This document shows, piece by piece, positions 51,788 to 61,590 of a stretch of 64,000 nucleotides of DNA (the first letter of the stretch is position 1; every line of letters starts with the position of its first letter). This DNA comes from Sedimentibacter sp. MB35-C1 (lineage in GTDB: Bacteria > Bacillota > Clostridia > Tissierellales > Sedimentibacteraceae). The DNA is taken from positions 868,001 through 932,000 of the forward strand of contig NZ_CP133188.1 of NCBI RefSeq assembly GCF_030913635.1, given 5' to 3'. The position numbers were made by a program, and so were the translations under genes. The notes under the pieces are model-generated. The model was not told where the DNA came from. It saw only the letters and a list, made by a program, of their open reading frames with translations, and searched no databases.

Positions 51788-51890
51788 GTCATTACTTATT
51801 TTTATAAATATGATGATTACTTAAAACAAATTTTATTGAATAATAAAAAAAACAATGTTATTATATAGTAAAAAATTTAACGGAGAATGC

Positions 51891-52892
51891 ATGATGAACG
51901 TTATTATTTTAAAAAAGGATGATATTTGTAAAATATTTTCCATGAAGGATGCTATTAAGGCTTGCAGGGACGCGCTGAAAATTTATTCTGAAGGAGGAAG
52001 TTCGATACCGCTTAGAACAAATATAGATATTGCCGGTAAAGGAGGTCAGAGCCTTTATATGCCGGGATATGCCGAAGGAGCGAATGCTCTTGGGATAAAA
52101 ATTGTGTCTGTTTATCCCAATAATGTTAAACGTGGATTGACAGCAGTTCCTTCTACCATGGTTTTGCTTGATGAAGAAACAGGCATGGTAAATTCGATTA
52201 TTGACGGAACATACCTAACGCAAATAAGAACTGGTGCTGTTTCCGGCGCGGCAACTGATATATTGGCAAGAAAAGATTCAGCTGTACTTGCTTTAATAGG
52301 TACAGGAGGACAGGCTGAAAGTCAGTTGGATGCCGTGCTAAGCGTGAGAGATATTAAGGAAGTAAGAATACACAGTAAAAATATTGAACATGCAAGAAAA
52401 TTTGCTGATAAAATGAGAGAAAAGTATAAATATAAACCAAGCATTGAAATTACAGCAGTTTTATCCTCAGGAGAAGCCGTAACTGGTGCAGACATTATTA
52501 CTACTGTAACAACGTCAATGCAGCCTACATTTGACGGAAGGCTGATTAAAAAAGGTGCTCATATAAACGGAGTAGGCTCATATACGCCTGCTATGCAGGA
52601 GTTAGATGAATGGACTCTTCTTAATGCGGACAAGGTATACGTTGACACAAGAGATGGTGTTCTCAATGAGAGCGGGGATTTTATTATACCTATGAAAGAA
52701 GGTAAATTTACTAAGGATATTGTGACAGGAGAACTTGGCGAAGTAATTTTAGGAAAGGTTCCTTCCAGAGAGAATGAGGATGAAGTTACCTTGTTTAAAA
52801 CTGTGGGAAGCAGTATTTTAGATATTGTAACATCCCGTAGAATTTACGAAAAAGCATTAGCTAGCAGAATAGGGAAGGTTGTAGAAATTTAA
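51891..52892 (+). CDS. Ornithine cyclodeaminase / mu-crystallin family protein
   Basis: The 333-residue NAD(P)-dependent protein has the family motifs SIPLRTNI, YMPGYAEGANALGIKIVSVYP, NSIIDGTYLTQIRTGAVSGAATDILARKDS (the TxxRTGA motif), LALIGTGGQAESQLDAVLSV for the dinucleotide and GAHINGVGSYTPAMQELDE. Ornithine cyclodeaminase turns ornithine into proline with loss of ammonia. Other family members reduce pyrroline-2-carboxylate. Position directly upstream of prdR favours the ornithine-to-proline reaction, feeding the reductase. ATG codons at 51891 and 51894 are both possible after GGAG at 51882. Confidence 0.85.
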   Translation: MMNVIILKKDDICKIFSMKDAIKACRDALKIYSEGGSSIPLRTNIDIAGKGGQSLYMPGYAEGANALGIKIVSVYPNNVKRGLTAVPSTMVLLDEETGMVNSIIDGTYLTQIRTGAVSGAATDILARKDSAVLALIGTGGQAESQLDAVLSVRDIKEVRIHSKNIEHARKFADKMREKYKYKPSIEITAVLSSGEAVTGADIITTVTTSMQPTFDGRLIKKGAHINGVGSYTPAMQELDEWTLLNADKVYVDTRDGVLNESGDFIIPMKEGKFTKDIVTGELGEVILGKVPSRENEDEVTLFKTVGSSILDIVTSRRIYEKALASRIGKVVEI

Positions 52893-52979: not shown

Positions 52980-54743
52980 ATGTTTCTCAATATGAATGTC
53001 AAATTTAAGGTTATGGATATCATGGACACTAATATCATTAAGGTTCCACCAAGCAAAACAGTTGCGGATATAATAGAAGAATTTGCGGAAAAAGACTGCG
53101 GTGAAGCCTTTGTGATTGAAACTGATTCTGATGGTGCGGAAAATATACAGGGAATGCTCACAATGAGTGGAATTTATAAGCTTATAAAGGAAAATAAATC
53201 ATTGAGGACTCCTGTAAGTGCTGCTATGAATTCTTCTGTGCTTACTGTATCACCTGAATTACATGTTGAAGATGCGCAGAAATTTATGCTTAAGGAAAAA
53301 GCTAAGAGCGCAGCTGTATGCAATCATGGTAAAATTGTAGGCATTATTGAAAATCATGCTATTGAATACGGATGCTATAAATCAATAATTGAAATGAGAA
53401 ATGAACTGATCGAAATAATAGATCACCTGCATGAAGGCGTATGTGTGGTAGATAAGTACGGTGTAGTAGGCCTTTGGAATAAAAGTGCAGAAAAGTTGTA
53501 TAATGTAAGCTCAGACGAAATCATGGGAAAGAAATTAAAAGATTTTTTTCCTACTGCGCTGTTAAATATAGTTTTGGAAAGAAAAAAAGCCATAGAGAAT
53601 GTTTATCATTCGCCGAGAGAAAATTCTGTCGTGGCTATATCGGCAAAGCCTATTATGACAAACAATTGTATTATTGGGGCTGTGTCATCAGAGACAGATA
53701 TTACAGAGAGAGCAAATCTAACTATAAAGCTTGAAGAAGCAAAAGAAAGAGTGAGCTTTCTTGAAACAGAATATAAGAAGCTTACGGAAGACTGCTGCCA
53801 AATGGGATCAATAATAGGCAGAAGCAAAAAGATTACGGAAGTTATTGTGTTAGCTAAGCAGCTGTCCAAAACAGACGTGAACGTATTGATTACCGGTGAA
53901 AGCGGTACGGGCAAAGAAGTTTTTGCCAGAGCGATACATACTGAAAGCGGGCGTAAAGGCGACTTTGTTGCAATAAACTGCGGAGCTGTTCCGGAAAATT
54001 TGCTTGAAAGTGAATTGTTTGGATATGAAGGGGGCGCTTTTACAGGAGCTCTTTCAAAAGGTAAGAAGGGCAAATTTTTTCTTGCAGATAAGGGAACATT
54101 GTTTTTAGATGAAATAGGTGAGATGCCGCTTGATATGCAGGTAAAACTTTTGAGAGTTCTTCAGGATGGAGAAATCCATCCGCTGGGAGGGGAAAAGCCG
54201 ATAAAAGTCGATGCGCGAATTATAGCGGCAACGAATCAGAATCTGCAAAAAATGATGAATAATGGAGAGTTCAGGGAAGATCTTTATTATAGGCTTAATG
54301 TTGTTACACTGTATCTTCCGCCATTAAGAGAAAGGTCAATGGATATACCGCTGTTTATTAATGAATTTCTTAAAGAGTTTTCAGAGAGGCACCATAAGGA
54401 AGTAAGGAGCATTTCCCCTCAAATTCTTAAGATACTTTTGGATTATGAATGGAAGGGAAATATAAGAGAGCTGAAAAATACAATAGAGCGTCTTGTGGTA
54501 TTGTCAGATGACAAATCAATAAATATAGAGGCGCTTCCTGAAGACATTTTAAAAAATGTAAACGAAAAAAGCATTAATGAGCTTGACCAGTACAATCTTC
54601 AGAAAGTACTTGAAAATACTGAAAAAAAAATAATAACTCAAGTTATGAAACTTAATGAAAATAACAAAAAGAAGGCGGCTGAAATGCTAAATATTCCAAG
54701 AAGCACTCTATATTATAAATTAAAACAGTATACTATTGAATAG
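52980..54743 (+). CDS. prdR: Sigma-54-dependent regulator of proline reductase
   Basis: This 587-residue protein has two CBS repeats (residues about 8-130), a PAS domain (about 140-250), and a sigma-54 AAA+ domain (about 275-510). Residues about 540-587 form a Fis-type helix-turn-helix (NNKKKAAEMLNIPRSTLYYKL). The AAA+ domain has GESGTGKE and the GAFTGA loop that contacts sigma-54. C. difficile PrdR has this kind of activator layout and switches on prd genes in the presence of proline. Here the gene precedes prdC, while in C. difficile it lies between prdC and prdA. AGGAGGT precedes the ATG. Confidence 0.93.
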   Translation: MFLNMNVKFKVMDIMDTNIIKVPPSKTVADIIEEFAEKDCGEAFVIETDSDGAENIQGMLTMSGIYKLIKENKSLRTPVSAAMNSSVLTVSPELHVEDAQKFMLKEKAKSAAVCNHGKIVGIIENHAIEYGCYKSIIEMRNELIEIIDHLHEGVCVVDKYGVVGLWNKSAEKLYNVSSDEIMGKKLKDFFPTALLNIVLERKKAIENVYHSPRENSVVAISAKPIMTNNCIIGAVSSETDITERANLTIKLEEAKERVSFLETEYKKLTEDCCQMGSIIGRSKKITEVIVLAKQLSKTDVNVLITGESGTGKEVFARAIHTESGRKGDFVAINCGAVPENLLESELFGYEGGAFTGALSKGKKGKFFLADKGTLFLDEIGEMPLDMQVKLLRVLQDGEIHPLGGEKPIKVDARIIAATNQNLQKMMNNGEFREDLYYRLNVVTLYLPPLRERSMDIPLFINEFLKEFSERHHKEVRSISPQILKILLDYEWKGNIRELKNTIERLVVLSDDKSINIEALPEDILKNVNEKSINELDQYNLQKVLENTEKKIITQVMKLNENNKKKAAEMLNIPRSTLYYKLKQYTIE

Positions 54744-54762: not shown

Positions 54763-54780
54763 GTGTCGAAATATTGACGC
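54763..54780. promoter_or_regulatory. Upstream activator site 1 (imperfect palindrome)
   Basis: GTGTCGAAATATTGACGC has the same core as site 2 at 54853 and is centred about 91 bp from it. It lies just after the prdR stop. Confidence 0.65.
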
Positions 54781-54852
54781 TGATTTGACAAGTTATTAAC
54801 ATAACAAAACAATGGGCTTTATTAGATAAAAAACTAAAATCCAAAGTATATA

Positions 54853-54872
54853 TGTGTCGAAATATCGACACA
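54853..54872. promoter_or_regulatory. Upstream activator site 2 (perfect palindrome)
   Basis: TGTGTCGAAATATCGACACA has perfect 8-bp arms around AATA. Its centre lies about 105 bp upstream of the -24 element of the sigma-54 promoter, the usual distance for an activator bound upstream. PrdR is the likely binder. Confidence 0.8.
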
Positions 54873-54906
54873 AAAAAACCAACGAAGTATAAAAAAAAAT
54901 TATAAT

Positions 54907-54950
54907 AAACAAAGCAAACTATTGAAAAATGTTTGCTTTGTTTGTTTTTT
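54907..54950 (+). terminator. Terminator of prdR
   Basis: A perfect 13-bp stem (54907-54919 and 54931-54943) is followed by GTTTTTT. It separates the activator sites from the prdC promoter, so prdC-prdF expression depends on that promoter. Confidence 0.92.
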
Positions 54951-54966
54951 AATTTACAAACAAAAA

Positions 54967-54984
54967 TTGGCATAAATTATGCAA
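54967..54984 (+). promoter_or_regulatory. Sigma-54 promoter of the prd operon
   Basis: TTGGCATAAATTATGCAA has GG at -24 and GC at -12 with the correct 12-bp register, close to TTGGCA-N6-TTGCA. It lies 57 bp before prdC. Confidence 0.9.
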
Positions 54985-55040: not shown

Positions 55041-56324
55041 ATGGATTTTAGATTTCTCTTGAGACAACATGTAGGCGCACCCTGCGTTCCGATGGTAAAA
55101 GTATCGGATCAGGTAAGAAGAGGTCAAAAAATAGCCGAGCCTAACGGACTTGGAGCATATATTCACAGCAGCGTAAACGGAAAAGTATCTGAAATAAATG
55201 ATACGGAAATTATTATTTCGGGAGATGAAAATCAATCGAAAGAATATCTTCCTATCGATGACACAAAGGATTTTCTTGAAGCAATAAAGGAATCCGGAAT
55301 TGTCGGAGCCGGAGGAGCAGGATTTCCAACACATGTGAAATTAAAGACCAAAATTCCCGGCGGTTATGCAATTGTTAATGCTGCGGAGTGCGAGCCCGTT
55401 TTAGGCCATAATATACAATATATTGAAAAATTCGCTTCTAAAATTATAAGTGGATTAAAAATAGTTATGGAAATTACTGATGCGGAACACGGAATTGTGG
55501 CTATAAAGCCTAAACACAAGCATGCGATCAATGTGCTTGAAAAAGCAATAGGAAAAGATAATATTAAAATTAAATTTCTTCCGGATTTGTACCCGGCCGG
55601 AGATGAGAGAGTTATAGTCAGAGAGATTCTAGGGATAGAATTAAAACCCGGGCAATTGCCGAGTGAAGCAAATGCAGTAATACAAAATGTTGAAACAGTA
55701 AAAAATATTGCTTTTGCGGTTGAAGACAGAAAACCTGTAATAGACAAAGATGTTACAGTGGGAGGCAGAGTAAGAAATGCTGGGGATGGTAAAACATTTC
55801 TGGATGTGCCGATAGGATACCCGGTAAAAAAACTTATTGATTCCCTTGGAGGATACATTGAACCACATGGGGAAATAGTACTGGGAGGACCATTTACAGG
55901 CAAGCATGGAAGTGAAGAAGCTCCTGTAACAAAAATACTTGGTGGAATTCTTGTGGCAATGCCTTTCCCTACTGATAAGAGAAAATTCGGCATACTTGCA
56001 TGTGAATGCGGAGCTCAGGAAAGCAGACTTAAAGAAATTGTAAATGCAATGGGTGGTCAGGTAGTTGCTGAAGAAAAATGCAAAAGGATGACTGAAGTAA
56101 ACGGCAGATACAGATGTGAGCTTCCAGGAGTTTGTCCCGGACAGGCACAGACTGTTATAAGCCTTAGAAAAAAAGGTGCTGAAGTTATTTTAACAGGAAG
56201 CTGTGGTGACTGAACTAACACTGTAATGACAGTTACTCCTAGGTTAGGAGTTCCAACATATCACCACACTGACCATGTTCTTAGGGCAGCAGGCCATAAG
56301 TTAGTAAGAAAAATAAAAGAATAG
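55041..56324 (+). CDS. prdC: Proline reductase-associated electron transfer protein PrdC (selenoprotein)
   Basis: The 427-residue RnfC-like protein carries electrons towards proline reductase. It starts DFRFLLRQHVGAPCVPMVKVSDQVRRGQ and has GIVGAGGAGFPTHVKL and NAAECEPVLGHN, as in RnfC. An in-frame UGA at 56211-56213 (codon 391) lies in GSCGD-U-TNTVMTV. Reading through it continues without a stop for 36 codons, including RLGVPTYHHTDHVLRAAG, to a TAG at 56322-56324, and a hairpin follows the UGA. The C-terminal cysteines and Sec would form the redox centre. AAGGAGGTG precedes the ATG at 55041; stopping at the UGA would cut off a conserved-looking tail. Confidence 0.9.
56211..56251 (+). other. 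Selenocysteine UGA and bacterial SECIS-like hairpin in prdC
   Basis: After the UGA (56211-56213), ACTCCTA (56235-56241) pairs perfectly with TAGGAGT (56245-56251) around a GGT apical loop. The loop begins about 28 nt after the UGA, within the usual 16-37 nt window, and starts with G as bacterial SECIS loops do. Confidence 0.8.
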
Positions 56325-56347: not shown

Positions 56348-58228
56348 ATGTCCATTACTCCAGAAACTGCTGAACAACACAAAAAGGATTATGCGGTGGT
56401 ATGCTGCAGGACAGAAGCCGGCAAGATTATTGAAGCCGATTCATTGGAAGATCCTGCTATATTTGCAGACTTAGAAGATTCAGGGTTGCTAAACATTCCT
56501 GATAACTGTTTAAAGATAGGTGAAGTATTAGGTGCAAAGCTAATATCAACCATTGATTCTTTAACACCGATTACTCCGGATGTTGTCGAAGGGGCAAAAA
56601 TAAATGAAGATAATGGTGCTGAAGTAGCAAAATTAACTGAGACAGTTACTGAAGAAGTTGCTGAAAAACCGGCAATTGTACCTGTGGCACCAAGTAATGC
56701 AGGTGTTTTAAAAATACACATTGGAGAGGGAAAAGACATTAATTTAGAAATTCCGATGGGGTATTCATCTGTGGGAACAGGCGTGTCATCTGCAAAAGCA
56801 GAAGAAGCAGCAGCTGTTCAAGAAACAGTGCTAAATGAAGTTCAGGTTAATGGTGAATTACCTGAAAAGAAAATAAGAGAGCTTGTTAAAAAGCACTATA
56901 AAATTGATAAAGTTGAATTAGGACCTGAAACTAAAATTGAAGGTACTACATTATTTATCAGAGAAAATATCTGTGAAGATGCAATTAAAGAAAGCGACTT
57001 AGTTAAAAAAATCAAATTTGACATTATTACTCCTGACAAATACAACTTGTACAGCGAGACTATAATGGATGTTCAGCCTATTGCAACTAAGGAAGGCGAT
57101 TCTAAGATAGGTACCGGAGTTACAAGAGTATTAGACGGTGTAATATTAATGGTTACTGGCGTGGATGAAGGCGGAGTACAGATAGGCGAATTTGGTTCTT
57201 CAGAAGGAATCCTTGAAGAAAACATTATGTGGAACAGACCTGGATCACCTGATAAAGGCGAGATATTTATCAAGACAGAGGTAGTAATTCAGGAACATAC
57301 AAACATGGAAAGACGCGGACCTTATGCTGCTCACAAGGCTTCAGACTTTATCACGCAGGAAATTAGAAATGCGTTAAAGAAATTGGATGATGAGAGTTTG
57401 GTTGTTAACACAGAATTAACAGAACAATACAGAAGACCCGGCAAGAAAAAAGTGGTTGTAGTAAAAGAAATAATGGGTCAGGGAGCAATGCATGATAACT
57501 TGATACTTCCAGTTGAACCTGTAGGTGTTTTAGGTGGAAAGCCAAATGTTGATTTAGGAAATCTTCCTGTAATGATGAGCCCGCTGGAAGTATTGGATGG
57601 AGGTATTCATGCACTCACATGCATAGGACCTGCTTCTAAGGAATGCTCAAGACATTATTGGAGAGAGCCTCTTGTAATTGAAGCTATGAATGATCCCGAC
57701 ATTGATCTTTGCGGTGTAATATTTGTAGGAAGTCCACAGATAAACTCTGAAAAATTCTATGTATCTGAAAGACTTGGAATGATTGTTGAAGGACTGGATG
57801 TTGACGGAGCTGTTGTAACTACAGAAGGCTTTGGAAACAACCATATCGACTTCGTAAGTCATATTGAACAGATAGGAATGAGAGGAATCCCTGTTGTAGG
57901 TATGTCATTCTGTGCTGTTCAGGGCGCTCTGGTAGTAGGAAATCCATATGTAAAATACATGGTGGATAACAACAAATCTCAGGAGGGTATTGAAAATGAG
58001 GTTCTCTCTTGTAATACTCTGTGTCCTGAAGATGCAGTACGTGCGGTAAGCATGCTCAAGTCTGTTATGTCCGGAGAAGAAGTGAAGGAAGCCGAAAGAA
58101 AATGGAATGCAAATGTTAAGGAAAACAATTTGGAGCTTATAGAAAAAGAATGCGACGTTAATATAGAAAGACAAAAAAATGAACAGTCGCTTCCAATGAG
58201 CCAAAAAAGGAAAGAGAAGTACTCATAA
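56348..58228 (+). CDS. prdA: D-proline reductase proprotein PrdA
   Basis: The 626-residue proprotein is cut before Cys425 in GGIHALTCIGPASKEC, and that cysteine becomes the pyruvoyl group that binds D-proline. This would give fragments of about 424 and 202 residues, matching the known 45 and 23 kDa subunits. The N-terminal part holds an alanine/valine-rich linker (about 75-170), then SKIGTGVTRVLDGVILMVTGVDEGGVQIGEFGSSEGIL (a segment shared with PrdD). The C-terminal part (GVIFVGSPQ, GFGNNHIDFVSHIEQIGMR) is shared with PrdE. AGGAGGT precedes the ATG. The next gene starts on the last base of its stop codon. Confidence 0.96.
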   Translation: MSITPETAEQHKKDYAVVCCRTEAGKIIEADSLEDPAIFADLEDSGLLNIPDNCLKIGEVLGAKLISTIDSLTPITPDVVEGAKINEDNGAEVAKLTETVTEEVAEKPAIVPVAPSNAGVLKIHIGEGKDINLEIPMGYSSVGTGVSSAKAEEAAAVQETVLNEVQVNGELPEKKIRELVKKHYKIDKVELGPETKIEGTTLFIRENICEDAIKESDLVKKIKFDIITPDKYNLYSETIMDVQPIATKEGDSKIGTGVTRVLDGVILMVTGVDEGGVQIGEFGSSEGILEENIMWNRPGSPDKGEIFIKTEVVIQEHTNMERRGPYAAHKASDFITQEIRNALKKLDDESLVVNTELTEQYRRPGKKKVVVVKEIMGQGAMHDNLILPVEPVGVLGGKPNVDLGNLPVMMSPLEVLDGGIHALTCIGPASKECSRHYWREPLVIEAMNDPDIDLCGVIFVGSPQINSEKFYVSERLGMIVEGLDVDGAVVTTEGFGNNHIDFVSHIEQIGMRGIPVVGMSFCAVQGALVVGNPYVKYMVDNNKSQEGIENEVLSCNTLCPEDAVRAVSMLKSVMSGEEVKEAERKWNANVKENNLELIEKECDVNIERQKNEQSLPMSQKRKEKYS

Positions 58229-58497
58229 TGAAGTACGGCGAAAAGACAATATATGTCGAAGGCATTATAACCAGAGTAACAGACGGCTCGATGGAGGTTG
58301 ATTTTAAAGGAAGGTTGGGACATATAAGTGTTCCACTTAGAATGGTAATAACAGATTATCCTTTGGAAGTAGGGCAGGAAGTTGCGCTGAATATGAGCTT
58401 TTTAGAAGTCATAAGCCCAAAAGTTAATGAAAAATATAGAAGCAATTTTGATAGACATATTGAAGTTGAGGAGGTAAAAAATGAGTCAGATAGTTAA
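58228..58497 (+). CDS. Small conserved protein of the proline reductase operon
   Basis: This 89-residue protein begins KYGEKTIYVEGIITRVTDGSMEVDFKGRLGHISVPLRMVITDYPLEVGQEV and looks like a small beta-barrel, with the C-terminus rich in Glu, Asn and Ser. I recall a similar small gene (CBO2795-like) between prdA and prdB in other clostridia, but its function is unknown. Its start shares a base with the prdA stop (TAATG), and it overlaps prdB by 17 bp, so it is surely translated with them. A role in assembly or maturation is only a guess. Confidence 0.75.
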   Translation: MKYGEKTIYVEGIITRVTDGSMEVDFKGRLGHISVPLRMVITDYPLEVGQEVALNMSFLEVISPKVNEKYRSNFDRHIEVEEVKNESDS

Positions 58498-59203
58498 AGG
58501 CTTACAATCTGAAATATTTGCCCCAATTACACCACCATCTGTTTTCACTCCTGTTACAATGGAGTTGAAAGATATGAAGGTGGCATTGGCATCAGCTGCC
58601 GGAATACACTTGAAAAGTGATAAAAGATTTAATTTAGCAGGAGATTTTACTTACAGAATAGTTCCTGGAGATACTCCTACAAGTGAATTAATGGTATCAC
58701 ACGGCGGTTATGATAATGGCGATGTTAATAAGGATGTAAACTGTATGTTTCCTCTTGACAGGTTGAGAGAGCTTAAAGAGGAAGGGTTAATTAAAGAAGT
58801 GGCTGAAAGTCATGTAGGATTTATGGGAGGCGGCGGAAATCAGCAGAAATTTACTGAAGAAACCGGACCTCAGATAGCTAAAATATTGAAGGATGAGAAT
58901 GTGGATGCAGTGCTGCTTACAGCAGGCTGAGGTACTTGCCACCGCTCTGCCGTGATTGTGCAGAGAGCGATTGAGGAAGCTGGAATACCAACTATTATTA
59001 TAGCAGCTCTTCCTCCGGTAGTGCGCCAAAATGGTACTCCGAGAGCCGTATCTCCAAGAGTCCCTATGGGTGCTAATGCAGGTGAACCGAATAATCCTGA
59101 GATGCAAAGAAATATTGTTAGAGATACACTTAAGCAATTGGTTGAAATTCAGACACCAGGTAAGATTGTTCCACTGCCTTACGAATATATTGCTAAGGTT
59201 TAA
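58481..59203 (+). CDS. prdB: D-proline reductase selenoprotein subunit PrdB
   Basis: The 240-residue subunit contains the catalytic selenocysteine at codon 150, an in-frame UGA at 58928-58930, in LLTAG-U-GTCHRSAVIVQRAIEEAG. The downstream frame is open to 59203 and matches the family (PTIIIAALPPVVRQNGTPRA, GEPNNPEMQR). Read without recoding it would be split into 149 and 90 residue parts. The protein reduces the D-proline bound to the pyruvoyl group of PrdA to 5-aminovalerate. TGAGGAGG lies before the ATG at 58481. A hairpin follows the UGA. Confidence 0.97.
58928..58965 (+). other. Selenocysteine UGA and bacterial SECIS-like hairpin in prdB
   Basis: CTCTGC (58945-58950) pairs with GCAGAG (58960-58965) around a 9-nt loop, CGTGATTGT, which has G at its second position. 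The loop begins about 21 nt after the UGA, within the usual distance. Confidence 0.75.
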
Positions 59204-59245: not shown

Positions 59246-59257
59246 TAAAAAAGGGTG

Positions 59258-60031
59258 ATGAAATTGGAATACAATCAGGAAATAGTAATAAGAAGACTTG
59301 TTATTAAGTCGTATCACATAACAGAGGTTGAAGCTAACGATGAATTTTTAATAAATAACAGAACTCTTGCTATTCAGAACAATTACTTTAATAAGATAAT
59401 TGATAATAATGAATATGTGGAAAAAATTGATGTTCATGTTATAAAACCAGGTGAGCATAATAGATTTGTCAATAGCATTATGGATATTATCCCAATATCA
59501 ACTAAAGTGCTTGGAGTGATAGGAGAAGGAATAACCCACACTTTAACAGGAGTGTATGTTATGATGACCGGCGCTGATAAAAATGGTGTACAAATGGCTG
59601 AATTTGGATCCTCAGAAGGTATTTTGAAAGAAAAATTATTTCTTGGAAAAGCAGGAACTCCTGGAGAGAACGATTATATAATTCATGTTGATATAACATT
59701 TAAAGAAGGGTTAATGTCAAACAGAATGTATCCAACGGAGGGACACAGGCTATGCGATTCTTTTATACAAGAAATAAGAAATATATTAAAAAAAATACCT
59801 GCGCAAGAATTTAATGAAAAGTATGAATACTTCGACAAAATTAGGCCTGGTAAAAAGAGAGTAGCTATTGTCAAGCAAATAGCGGGGCAGGGAACTATGT
59901 ACGACAACCAGTTATTCAGCGAAGAACCTTCAGGATTTGCCGGTGGGAAATCCATAATTGACATGAAAAATCTCCCTATTGTTCTTAGCCCTAATGAATA
60001 TAGGGACGGAGCACTGAGAGCAATGGTATAA
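59258..60031 (+). CDS. prdD: PrdD, paralogue of the N-terminal part of PrdA
   Basis: The 257-residue protein aligns with PrdA residues about 190-424. Shared segments are LGVIGEGITHTLTGVYVMMTGADKNGVQMAEFGSSEGIL (PrdA: the matching GVTRVLDGV region) and IVKQIAGQGTMYDNQL with PrdA VVKEIMGQGAMHDNLI. It ends at VLSPNEYRDGALRAMV, which is where PrdA has LTC and is cut. PrdD lacks the alanine-rich linker and the processing cysteine. The start is ATG at 59258; TTG at 59264 fits the AAGG site slightly better. Its role is unknown, possibly structural or regulatory for the reductase. Confidence 0.88.
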   Translation: MKLEYNQEIVIRRLVIKSYHITEVEANDEFLINNRTLAIQNNYFNKIIDNNEYVEKIDVHVIKPGEHNRFVNSIMDIIPISTKVLGVIGEGITHTLTGVYVMMTGADKNGVQMAEFGSSEGILKEKLFLGKAGTPGENDYIIHVDITFKEGLMSNRMYPTEGHRLCDSFIQEIRNILKKIPAQEFNEKYEYFDKIRPGKKRVAIVKQIAGQGTMYDNQLFSEEPSGFAGGKSIIDMKNLPIVLSPNEYRDGALRAMV

Positions 60032-60043
60032 GGAGGTGTTTTT

Positions 60044-60514
60044 ATGGGTATAGGACCATCGACTAAAGAGACGACACTTCATCATTTTAGAGATCCTTTA
60101 CTGGAAATTGCTTCATCTGATGATGATTTAGATGTTGTAGGAGTAGTACTTGTGGGAACTCCGCAAGATAATGAGTATAAAAATTTTGTAGGTAAAAGAA
60201 CTGCTGCGTGGCTGGAAGCAATGAGGGTTGATGGAGCTATCATATCCTGTGACGGATGGGGAAACAGCCATGTGGATTATGCTAACACTATTGAAGAGAT
60301 AGGGAAACGTAATATCCCTTTGGTAGGTATGGCATTTATAGGAACTCAGGCACAATTTGTTGTTACAAATAAGTATATGGATACTATTGTGGATATAAAT
60401 AAGTCTGAAGAAGGAATAGAAACAGAAAATGTCGGAGAAAATAATGCAAGTAAGATTGATGCGAAAAAAGCTGTTGCATTGTTAAAATTAAAAATGCGGA
60501 GAGGGCGTAAGTAG
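60044..60514 (+). CDS. prdE: PrdE, paralogue of the C-terminal part of PrdA
   Basis: The 156-residue protein aligns with PrdA from Cys425 onwards: MGIGPSTKETTLHHFRDPLLEI against CIGPASKECSRHYWREPLVIE, then VVGVVLVGTPQ, GWGNSHVDYANTIEEIGKRNIPLVGMAF. The initiator methionine lies beside the position of the pyruvoyl-forming cysteine, so no such cofactor can form here. Together PrdD and PrdE look like a PrdA split at the cleavage point into two genes. AAGGAGGTG precedes the ATG. Confidence 0.88.
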   Translation: MGIGPSTKETTLHHFRDPLLEIASSDDDLDVVGVVLVGTPQDNEYKNFVGKRTAAWLEAMRVDGAIISCDGWGNSHVDYANTIEEIGKRNIPLVGMAFIGTQAQFVVTNKYMDTIVDINKSEEGIETENVGENNASKIDAKKAVALLKLKMRRGRK

Positions 60515-60582
60515 AAAATTTAGCATACAAATCAACGTTAAAATTTTAACAACAACACAATTTAAGTGAGGGAGGTAATTCT

Positions 60583-61590
60583 ATGAAATTTTCTAGAAGT
60601 ATAGTGGCTATAGATTCTCATACTATGGGAGAACCTACAAGAGTAATTGTAGGAGGTGTACCATCAATAAAAGGTGCAACTATGCCGGAAAAGAAAAAAT
60701 ATTTAGAAGATCACATGGACTATATTAGAACATCAATTATGCACGAACCGAGAGGGCATAATGATATGTTCGGATCTATTATTACACAGCCAACATCTGA
60801 TAAAGCGGATATCGGTATTATCTTTATGGATGGGGGAGGATACCTGAATATGTGCGGTCATGGTTCCATAGGAGCTGCGACGGTTGTTGTTGAAAATGGA
60901 ATGGTTCCTATGGTTGAGCCTGTAACAGAAATAAATTTGGAAGCTCCGGCCGGCATAGTGAAAGCAAAAGTTTTCGTAGAATGCGGTAAAGTAAAAGAAG
61001 TATCTATAACTAATGTACCGGCTTTTCTCTATAAGAGAGATGTAAAAATAAATGTTCCTGAAATTGGAGAAATTATATTAGATATTTCATTTGGAGGAAG
61101 CTTTTTTGCAATATTAAATGCAAAGCAGCTTGGTCTCGAGATTATACCTGCTAATGCAGATAAGTTGAAAAATATTGGAATGGTTATTCGCGACGTCGTT
61201 AATAAGGAGATTAAGGTACAACATCCTACTCTTCCGCATATCAACACAGTTGACTTGGTGGAAATATATGACGAGCCGACTAATCCAGAAGCAACATATA
61301 AGAATGTAGTTGTGTTTGGTGACGGACAAGTAGATCGATCGCCATGCGGAACGGGAACATCAGCGAAAATGGCCACATTGTATGCAAAAGGTAAGCTAAA
61401 ACTGGGTGAACCATTTGTGTATGAAAGCATAATAGGGACGTTGTTCAGAGGCAGAGTTCTAGAAACAACTAAAGTAGGGGATCTAGATGCAATAGTTCCG
61501 GAAATTACAGGCAGTGCTTATATTACAGGATACAGTAACTACGTCATAGATGACAGTGACCCAGTAAGGCATGGATTTATGCTACAGTAA
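60583..61590 (+). CDS. prdF: Proline racemase
   Basis: The 335-residue enzyme interconverts L- and D-proline, supplying D-proline to the reductase. The two catalytic cysteines are Cys91 in NMCGHGSIGA and Cys255 in DRSPCGTGTSAKM. SIVAIDSHTMGEPTRVI at the start is typical, and the length agrees with the family. Hydroxyproline epimerases share this fold, but two Cys with this context and the operon support proline. GGGAGG precedes the ATG. It is near the end of the prd operon. Confidence 0.95.
   Translation: MKFSRSIVAIDSHTMGEPTRVIVGGVPSIKGATMPEKKKYLEDHMDYIRTSIMHEPRGHNDMFGSIITQPTSDKADIGIIFMDGGGYLNMCGHGSIGAATVVVENGMVPMVEPVTEINLEAPAGIVKAKVFVECGKVKEVSITNVPAFLYKRDVKINVPEIGEIILDISFGGSFFAILNAKQLGLEIIPANADKLKNIGMVIRDVVNKEIKVQHPTLPHINTVDLVEIYDEPTNPEATYKNVVVFGDGQVDRSPCGTGTSAKMATLYAKGKLKLGEPFVYESIIGTLFRGRVLETTKVGDLDAIVPEITGSAYITGYSNYVIDDSDPVRHGFMLQ

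Follow-up and report, generated by a model that had tools for sequence, protein, structure and literature searches.

Nie et al. 2019 (PMC6615313) predicted that PrdR controls proline genes in nine species of Clostridiales, Clostridioides difficile among them. The predicted PrdR motif consists of TGT/ACA inverted repeats 10–12 bp apart, with several sites preceding the C. difficile prd genes. Repeats of this kind are attributed to 15 activator groups, PrdR among them, and most activator sites lie at a distance of 100–250 bp from the promoter, where more than one copy is frequent (PMC6615313). Proline switches on prdC and the prdA operon of C. difficile, and this response depends on PrdR (PMC7438776). 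Soutourina et al. 2020 (PMC7438776) likewise predicted sigma-54 promoters for prdC and for prdA, both of which are bound by SigL in gel shift assays (PMC6615313). PrdR control of proline reduction, a central Stickland pathway, has been linked in this organism to toxin production and sporulation (PMC6615313, PMC12285225). Our search of the open literature found no published report on PrdR binding.

The window analyzed here is a 64,000-nucleotide stretch (positions 868001–932000) of the genome of Sedimentibacter sp. MB35-C1 (G000), a single contig of 3.62 Mb. It contains, in order and all on the + strand, an ornithine-cyclodeaminase-family gene, prdR, a 297-bp gap, prdC, prdA, a CBO2463-domain gene, prdB, prdD, a PrdE-type gene and a proline racemase gene. 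The genes and codons that bear on the analysis are as follows.

52980..54743, + strand: prdR, a sigma-54-dependent activator of 587 aa with CBS, PAS, AAA+ (Sigma54_activat) and Fis-type HTH_8 domains (Pfam)
54693..54719, + strand: codons of the PrdR recognition helix IPRSTLYYK; the second Tyr is Tyr579, the column of the HTH alignment that separates the operator classes described below
55041..56324, + strand: prdC, a selenoprotein gene (TIGR04481), with an in-frame TGA at 56211-56213 that is read through
56348..58228, + strand: prdA, D-proline reductase proprotein (TIGR04480, 982.5 bits), 23 bp after prdC
58481..59203, + strand: prdB (TIGR04483), with an in-frame TGA (Sec) at 58928-58930
59255-60031, + strand: prdD (TIGR04482)
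60044-60514, + strand: PrdE-type gene, with a PrdA-type C-terminal match
60583-61590, + strand: proline racemase (NF010576)

The activator is called PrdR on the basis of its domain content, its linkage to the prd genes, with prdC directly downstream, and its full-length match to NF041552 (TF_PrdR). This is by far its best family, with 754.9 bits over positions 5–576 of 577, a score that stays under the curated 795-bit cut-off. The protein is 97% identical to PrdR of Sedimentibacter sp. LM3-B4.1. The genome also encodes sigma-54 (TIGR02395, 456.8 bits, over the cut-off, G000:C1:2539615-2540991). Mechanically called open reading frames of prdC and prdB stop too early, at the selenocysteine TGA codons; the genome-level prdC match crosses one TGA, and many PrdC relatives have a TGA at the same place. 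Because prdC and prdA are separated by only 23 bp, a single promoter before prdC would serve the whole operon, of which prdD, the PrdE-type gene and the racemase gene (59255..61590) are likely the remainder. The ornithine-cyclodeaminase-family gene (51855-52892) lies directly upstream of prdR, and its product could feed ornithine-derived proline to the reductase.

A second proline-reductase-like cluster is present outside the window (L206, G000:C1:3299000-3310500). It encodes a PrdC that lacks the TGA, a divergent PrdA, PrdB, and PrdE- and PrdD-type proteins, followed by a 474-aa PrdR-like activator without the CBS part and with the helix IPRTTLYHK. The cluster has a sigma-54 promoter and neither of the two operator types defined below, and its substrate may differ from D-proline. 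A Rex-like sequence with one mismatch, TAGTTAATTAAATAACAA, is located between the sigma-54 promoter and the prdC start of this cluster (G000:C1:3301723-3301740; L206/L271). Similar second clusters are found in G015, G301, G216, G282, G357, G379 and G529.

The gap between prdR and prdC contains the following elements, where matches are given to the pattern TGTCRA-N4-TYGACA, hereafter type A.

54763..54780, + strand: UAS 1, distal predicted PrdR site, GTGTCGAAATATTGACGC, centre 197.5 bp from the promoter GG
54775..54790, + strand: possible weak overlapping site TGACGCTGATTTGACA, 11 bp downstream of UAS 1, with two mismatches to type A; uncertain
54853..54872, no strand assigned: UAS 2, proximal predicted PrdR site, TGTGTCGAAATATCGACACA, an exact match to type A, centre 106.5 bp from the promoter GG
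54904..54952, + strand: intrinsic terminator of prdR, RNA fold of -19 kcal/mol (z -6.1) followed by a T run, 16-nt arms 94% complementary
54967..54983, + strand: sigma-54 -24/-12 promoter TTGGCATAAATTATGCA, one mismatch to TTGGCAY-N5-TTGCW, in the -12 box

The two upstream sites had been proposed in an initial annotation made from the sequence, and both are present, with their cores 91 bp apart. That annotation described the second site as a perfect palindrome. It is symmetric at 18 of 20 positions, with two perfect 8-bp arms surrounding an asymmetric AATA, and so falls short of that description; symmetry at the first site is 12/20. Site 1 ends in ACG, which leaves it one mismatch from the type-A pattern, and site 2 contains TGTCGAAATATCGACA, an inverted TGT/ACA repeat within the 10–12 bp spacing of PMC6615313. 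A single palindrome is not remarkable in this AT-rich gap, since an inverted repeat with 8-bp arms arose in 159 of 2000 shuffles of the 297 bp. A repeated 13-mer appeared in just six of the 2000. The terminator that had been placed between the elements is a strong hairpin positioned between site 2 and the promoter. The promoter, called canonical in the same annotation, lies at the position given there and has GG-N10-GC spacing, but its -12 box reads ATGC, not TTGC.

The operator consensus originally proposed, GTGTCGA-N4-TYGACRC, accommodates both sites and matches exactly nowhere else in the 3.62-Mb genome. With three mismatches allowed it shows no excess within the window, and as a genome-wide regulon finder the 18-bp form with mismatches shows no excess over a reversed control. 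At up to one mismatch, type A has 22 matches in the genome compared with 44 for the reversed control, so most of these are chance occurrences. Inspection of all 22 showed a good sigma-54 promoter close to the two in the window and to no others; in this genome it is the prd locus alone that pairs type-A sites with one. A regulon beyond prd was considered and rejected, as the other 20 sites lack a good sigma-54 promoter, two of them having weak ones with two mismatches. The other perfect match to the core, at 2144864, falls within a gene and has no promoter close by.

Close relatives in which prdR is retained (L200/L037, L198) have the site, as the initial annotation's reading of it would predict. 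The closest, Sedimentibacter LM3-B4.1 (L037), keeps both sites, UAS 1 as GTGTCGAACCGTTGACGA and UAS 2 as TGTGTCGAAATATTGACACA. In site 1 the changes affect the spacer and the final base, and in site 2 the Y position of the right arm. The possible weak site beside UAS 1 has a single mismatch to type A in the relative L200. We also scanned 25 genomes of the genus for exact matches to GTGTCGA-N4-TYGACR, which were found in three: the genome studied here, G015 at the same prd locus, and G008, in which no PrdA match was found. The G008 match is the middle one of three tandem type-A sites (L301 1483-1533) that adjoin a zero-mismatch sigma-54 promoter, TTGGCATATTAATTGCT. Judged from sequence, the genes downstream (L304 1855-5165) encode a 2Fe-2S protein, an FAD oxidoreductase, a ferredoxin and a DAO-type oxidoreductase; they may form an amino-acid dehydrogenase operon controlled by a PrdR-like activator. 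Given these sites before a non-prd operon in a genome that lacks prd, and the 15 activator groups that share TGT/ACA repeats, the motif is neither exclusive to prd nor specific to PrdR.

Three overlapping genome sets were searched for PrdC, namely 100 relatives, 391 members of the class and 249 members of the order, and the loci recovered were compared. This yielded 53 prdR genes from Clostridia, each followed on its own strand by a prd target, a few of the pairs being near-duplicates. After removal of near-duplicates, a -24/-12 element is present in 43 of 47 prd upstream regions, and the sites are mostly 60–350 bp upstream of it. Many regions carry a distal site, or a close pair 17–20 bp apart, plus a separate proximal site, and the window has this distal-plus-proximal layout. 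Two operator types were recognized, type A and a second, TGACTA-N4-TAGTCA (type B).

Because both types had been spotted by eye in upstream regions, we screened every one of the 4096 hexamer inverted repeats, with spacers of 2–8, in an unbiased way. Among regions whose adjacent PrdR has a non-Ser helix, TGTCAA-N4-TTGACA ranks first, with 14 of 33 non-redundant regions against a null maximum of 8. In the Ser-helix group TGACTA-N4-TAGTCA ranks first, with 10 of 12 regions against a null maximum of 4. A third operator class was sought for PrdR2 helices ending in YHK, for which only two usable regions were available and nothing rose above the null.

The operator type follows the recognition helix of the adjacent PrdR. 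Type A at up to one mismatch accompanies 20 of 33 pairs with a YYK or HYK helix, the other 13 having no such site, and none of the 13 pairs with an HSK helix. Conversely, type B accompanies 11 of the 13 HSK pairs and none of the 33 others. Shuffling gives an expectation of 0.07 regions for type A in the YYK/HYK group and 0.02 for type B in the HSK group. A single HTH column, Tyr579 in the window's PrdR, splits the classes fully, being Tyr in 20/20 cases with type A and Ser in 11/11 with type B; the helix of the Ser class is IPRTTLHSK. On a PrdR tree built without the HTH (a quick tree, with long branches flagged), the Ser class forms one clade, and helix and operator each change once. This covariation points to PrdR as the binder. 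As a single event on the tree, it does not prove the role of the residue in the Tyr579 column, and it leaves no statistical test of independent changes. The consensus first proposed is thus too narrow, the wider form being TGTCRA-N4-TYGACA, with TGACTA-N4-TAGTCA in one PrdR clade.

We put the probability at about 0.87 that the two sites in the gap are upstream activator sequences through which PrdR activates the sigma-54 promoter of the prd operon. PrdR as the binder and sigma-54 as the polymerase partner, both named in the initial annotation, are well supported by the genome comparison. In the mechanism we envisage, proline availability would be sensed through the N-terminal CBS/PAS region of PrdR, and PrdR dimers would bind the distal and proximal TGTCRA-N4-TYGACA inverted repeats via the Fis-type HTH. 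PrdR would assemble through its AAA+ domains, and with the DNA in between looped out these could touch sigma-54 polymerase at TTGGCAT-N5-ATGCA. They would then open the promoter from which the prdC-A-B-D-E-racemase operon is transcribed, while the terminator would keep prdR transcription out of the operon.

A different sigma-54 activator could instead bind the sites, alone or with PrdR. One such protein is encoded at G000:C1 about 1483245-1484669 and has a Tyr-class helix, LPRATLYYK. Its ortholog is present in G008, the genome with three tandem type-A sites and no prd genes, and many activator groups share TGT/ACA sites (PMC6615313). However, across genomes a change of helix in the adjacent PrdR comes with a change of operator, and prdR is the neighbouring gene, the usual arrangement for such activators. 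There is no type-A site in the 10 kb around the second activator, which has no evident adjacent target operon. We therefore consider it unlikely that an activator other than PrdR accounts for the sites; this second Tyr-class protein is a possible additional binder.

Rex is a poorer candidate. The sequence AAGTTATTAACATAACAA at 54790-54807, between the two UAS, has two mismatches to TTGTTA-N6-TAACAA, is unchanged in L037, and one relative (L191) has an exact Rex-type match. A Rex repressor bound here would add redox control, and conservation of the gap would reflect Rex, not PrdR. Yet the Rex pattern at up to two mismatches occurs 647 times in the genome compared with 929 in the reversed control, which places this candidate operator no higher than genomic background. 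Most relatives have no Rex-type match, and Rex would not account for the TGTC/GACA sites. This reading is accordingly very improbable. That the palindrome is an RNA hairpin or terminator and not a protein site is scarcely credible: site 2 could form an 8-bp stem and a scan lists it as terminator-like on the minus strand, but termination is the task of another hairpin, at 54904-54952, site 1 shares the core yet pairs weakly (12/20), and it is the arm sequence, not merely its pairing, that recurs in many genomes.

Returning to PrdR as the binder, comparing genomes refines its operator consensus and defines two classes of regulator and operator, told apart completely by one residue of the recognition helix. 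The odds seem about even that PrdR has two DNA-reading classes set mainly by this residue, with Tyr reading TGTCRA-N4-TYGACA and Ser, in IPRTTLHSK, reading TGACTA-N4-TAGTCA, operator and helix having changed together once while the target operon stayed the same. With a single residue that discriminates fully, the recognition code of the Fis-type activator family becomes directly testable.

The Sedimentibacter locus resembles those of C. difficile and the eight other Clostridiales in having a PrdR ortholog with a Fis-type HTH, an inverted TGT...ACA repeat (TGT-N10-ACA in site 2), several sites, a -24/-12 promoter 100–250 bp downstream and the same target genes. In its general form the operator is not undescribed, as the initial annotation had supposed, since TGT/ACA sites for PrdR were already predicted in nine species (PMC6615313). 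Unlike C. difficile, in which prdC and prdA have separate promoters, Sedimentibacter has both genes in one operon with one promoter downstream of prdR. Sedimentibacter adds a genus to those with predicted PrdR sites, and its ATGC -12 box is a further difference. The sites of FhlA and NifA are similar in that Fis-type HTH activators are paired with TGT/ACA inverted repeats upstream of a sigma-54 promoter (PMC6615313). However, the regulators, signals and target genes are different, and the comparison covered the outer TGT/ACA bases of the repeats. Beyond these parallels, a second operator class, TGACTA-N4-TAGTCA, found only with the IPRTTLHSK form of PrdR, appears to be new relative to the main text of PMC6615313, whose motif description it does not fit.
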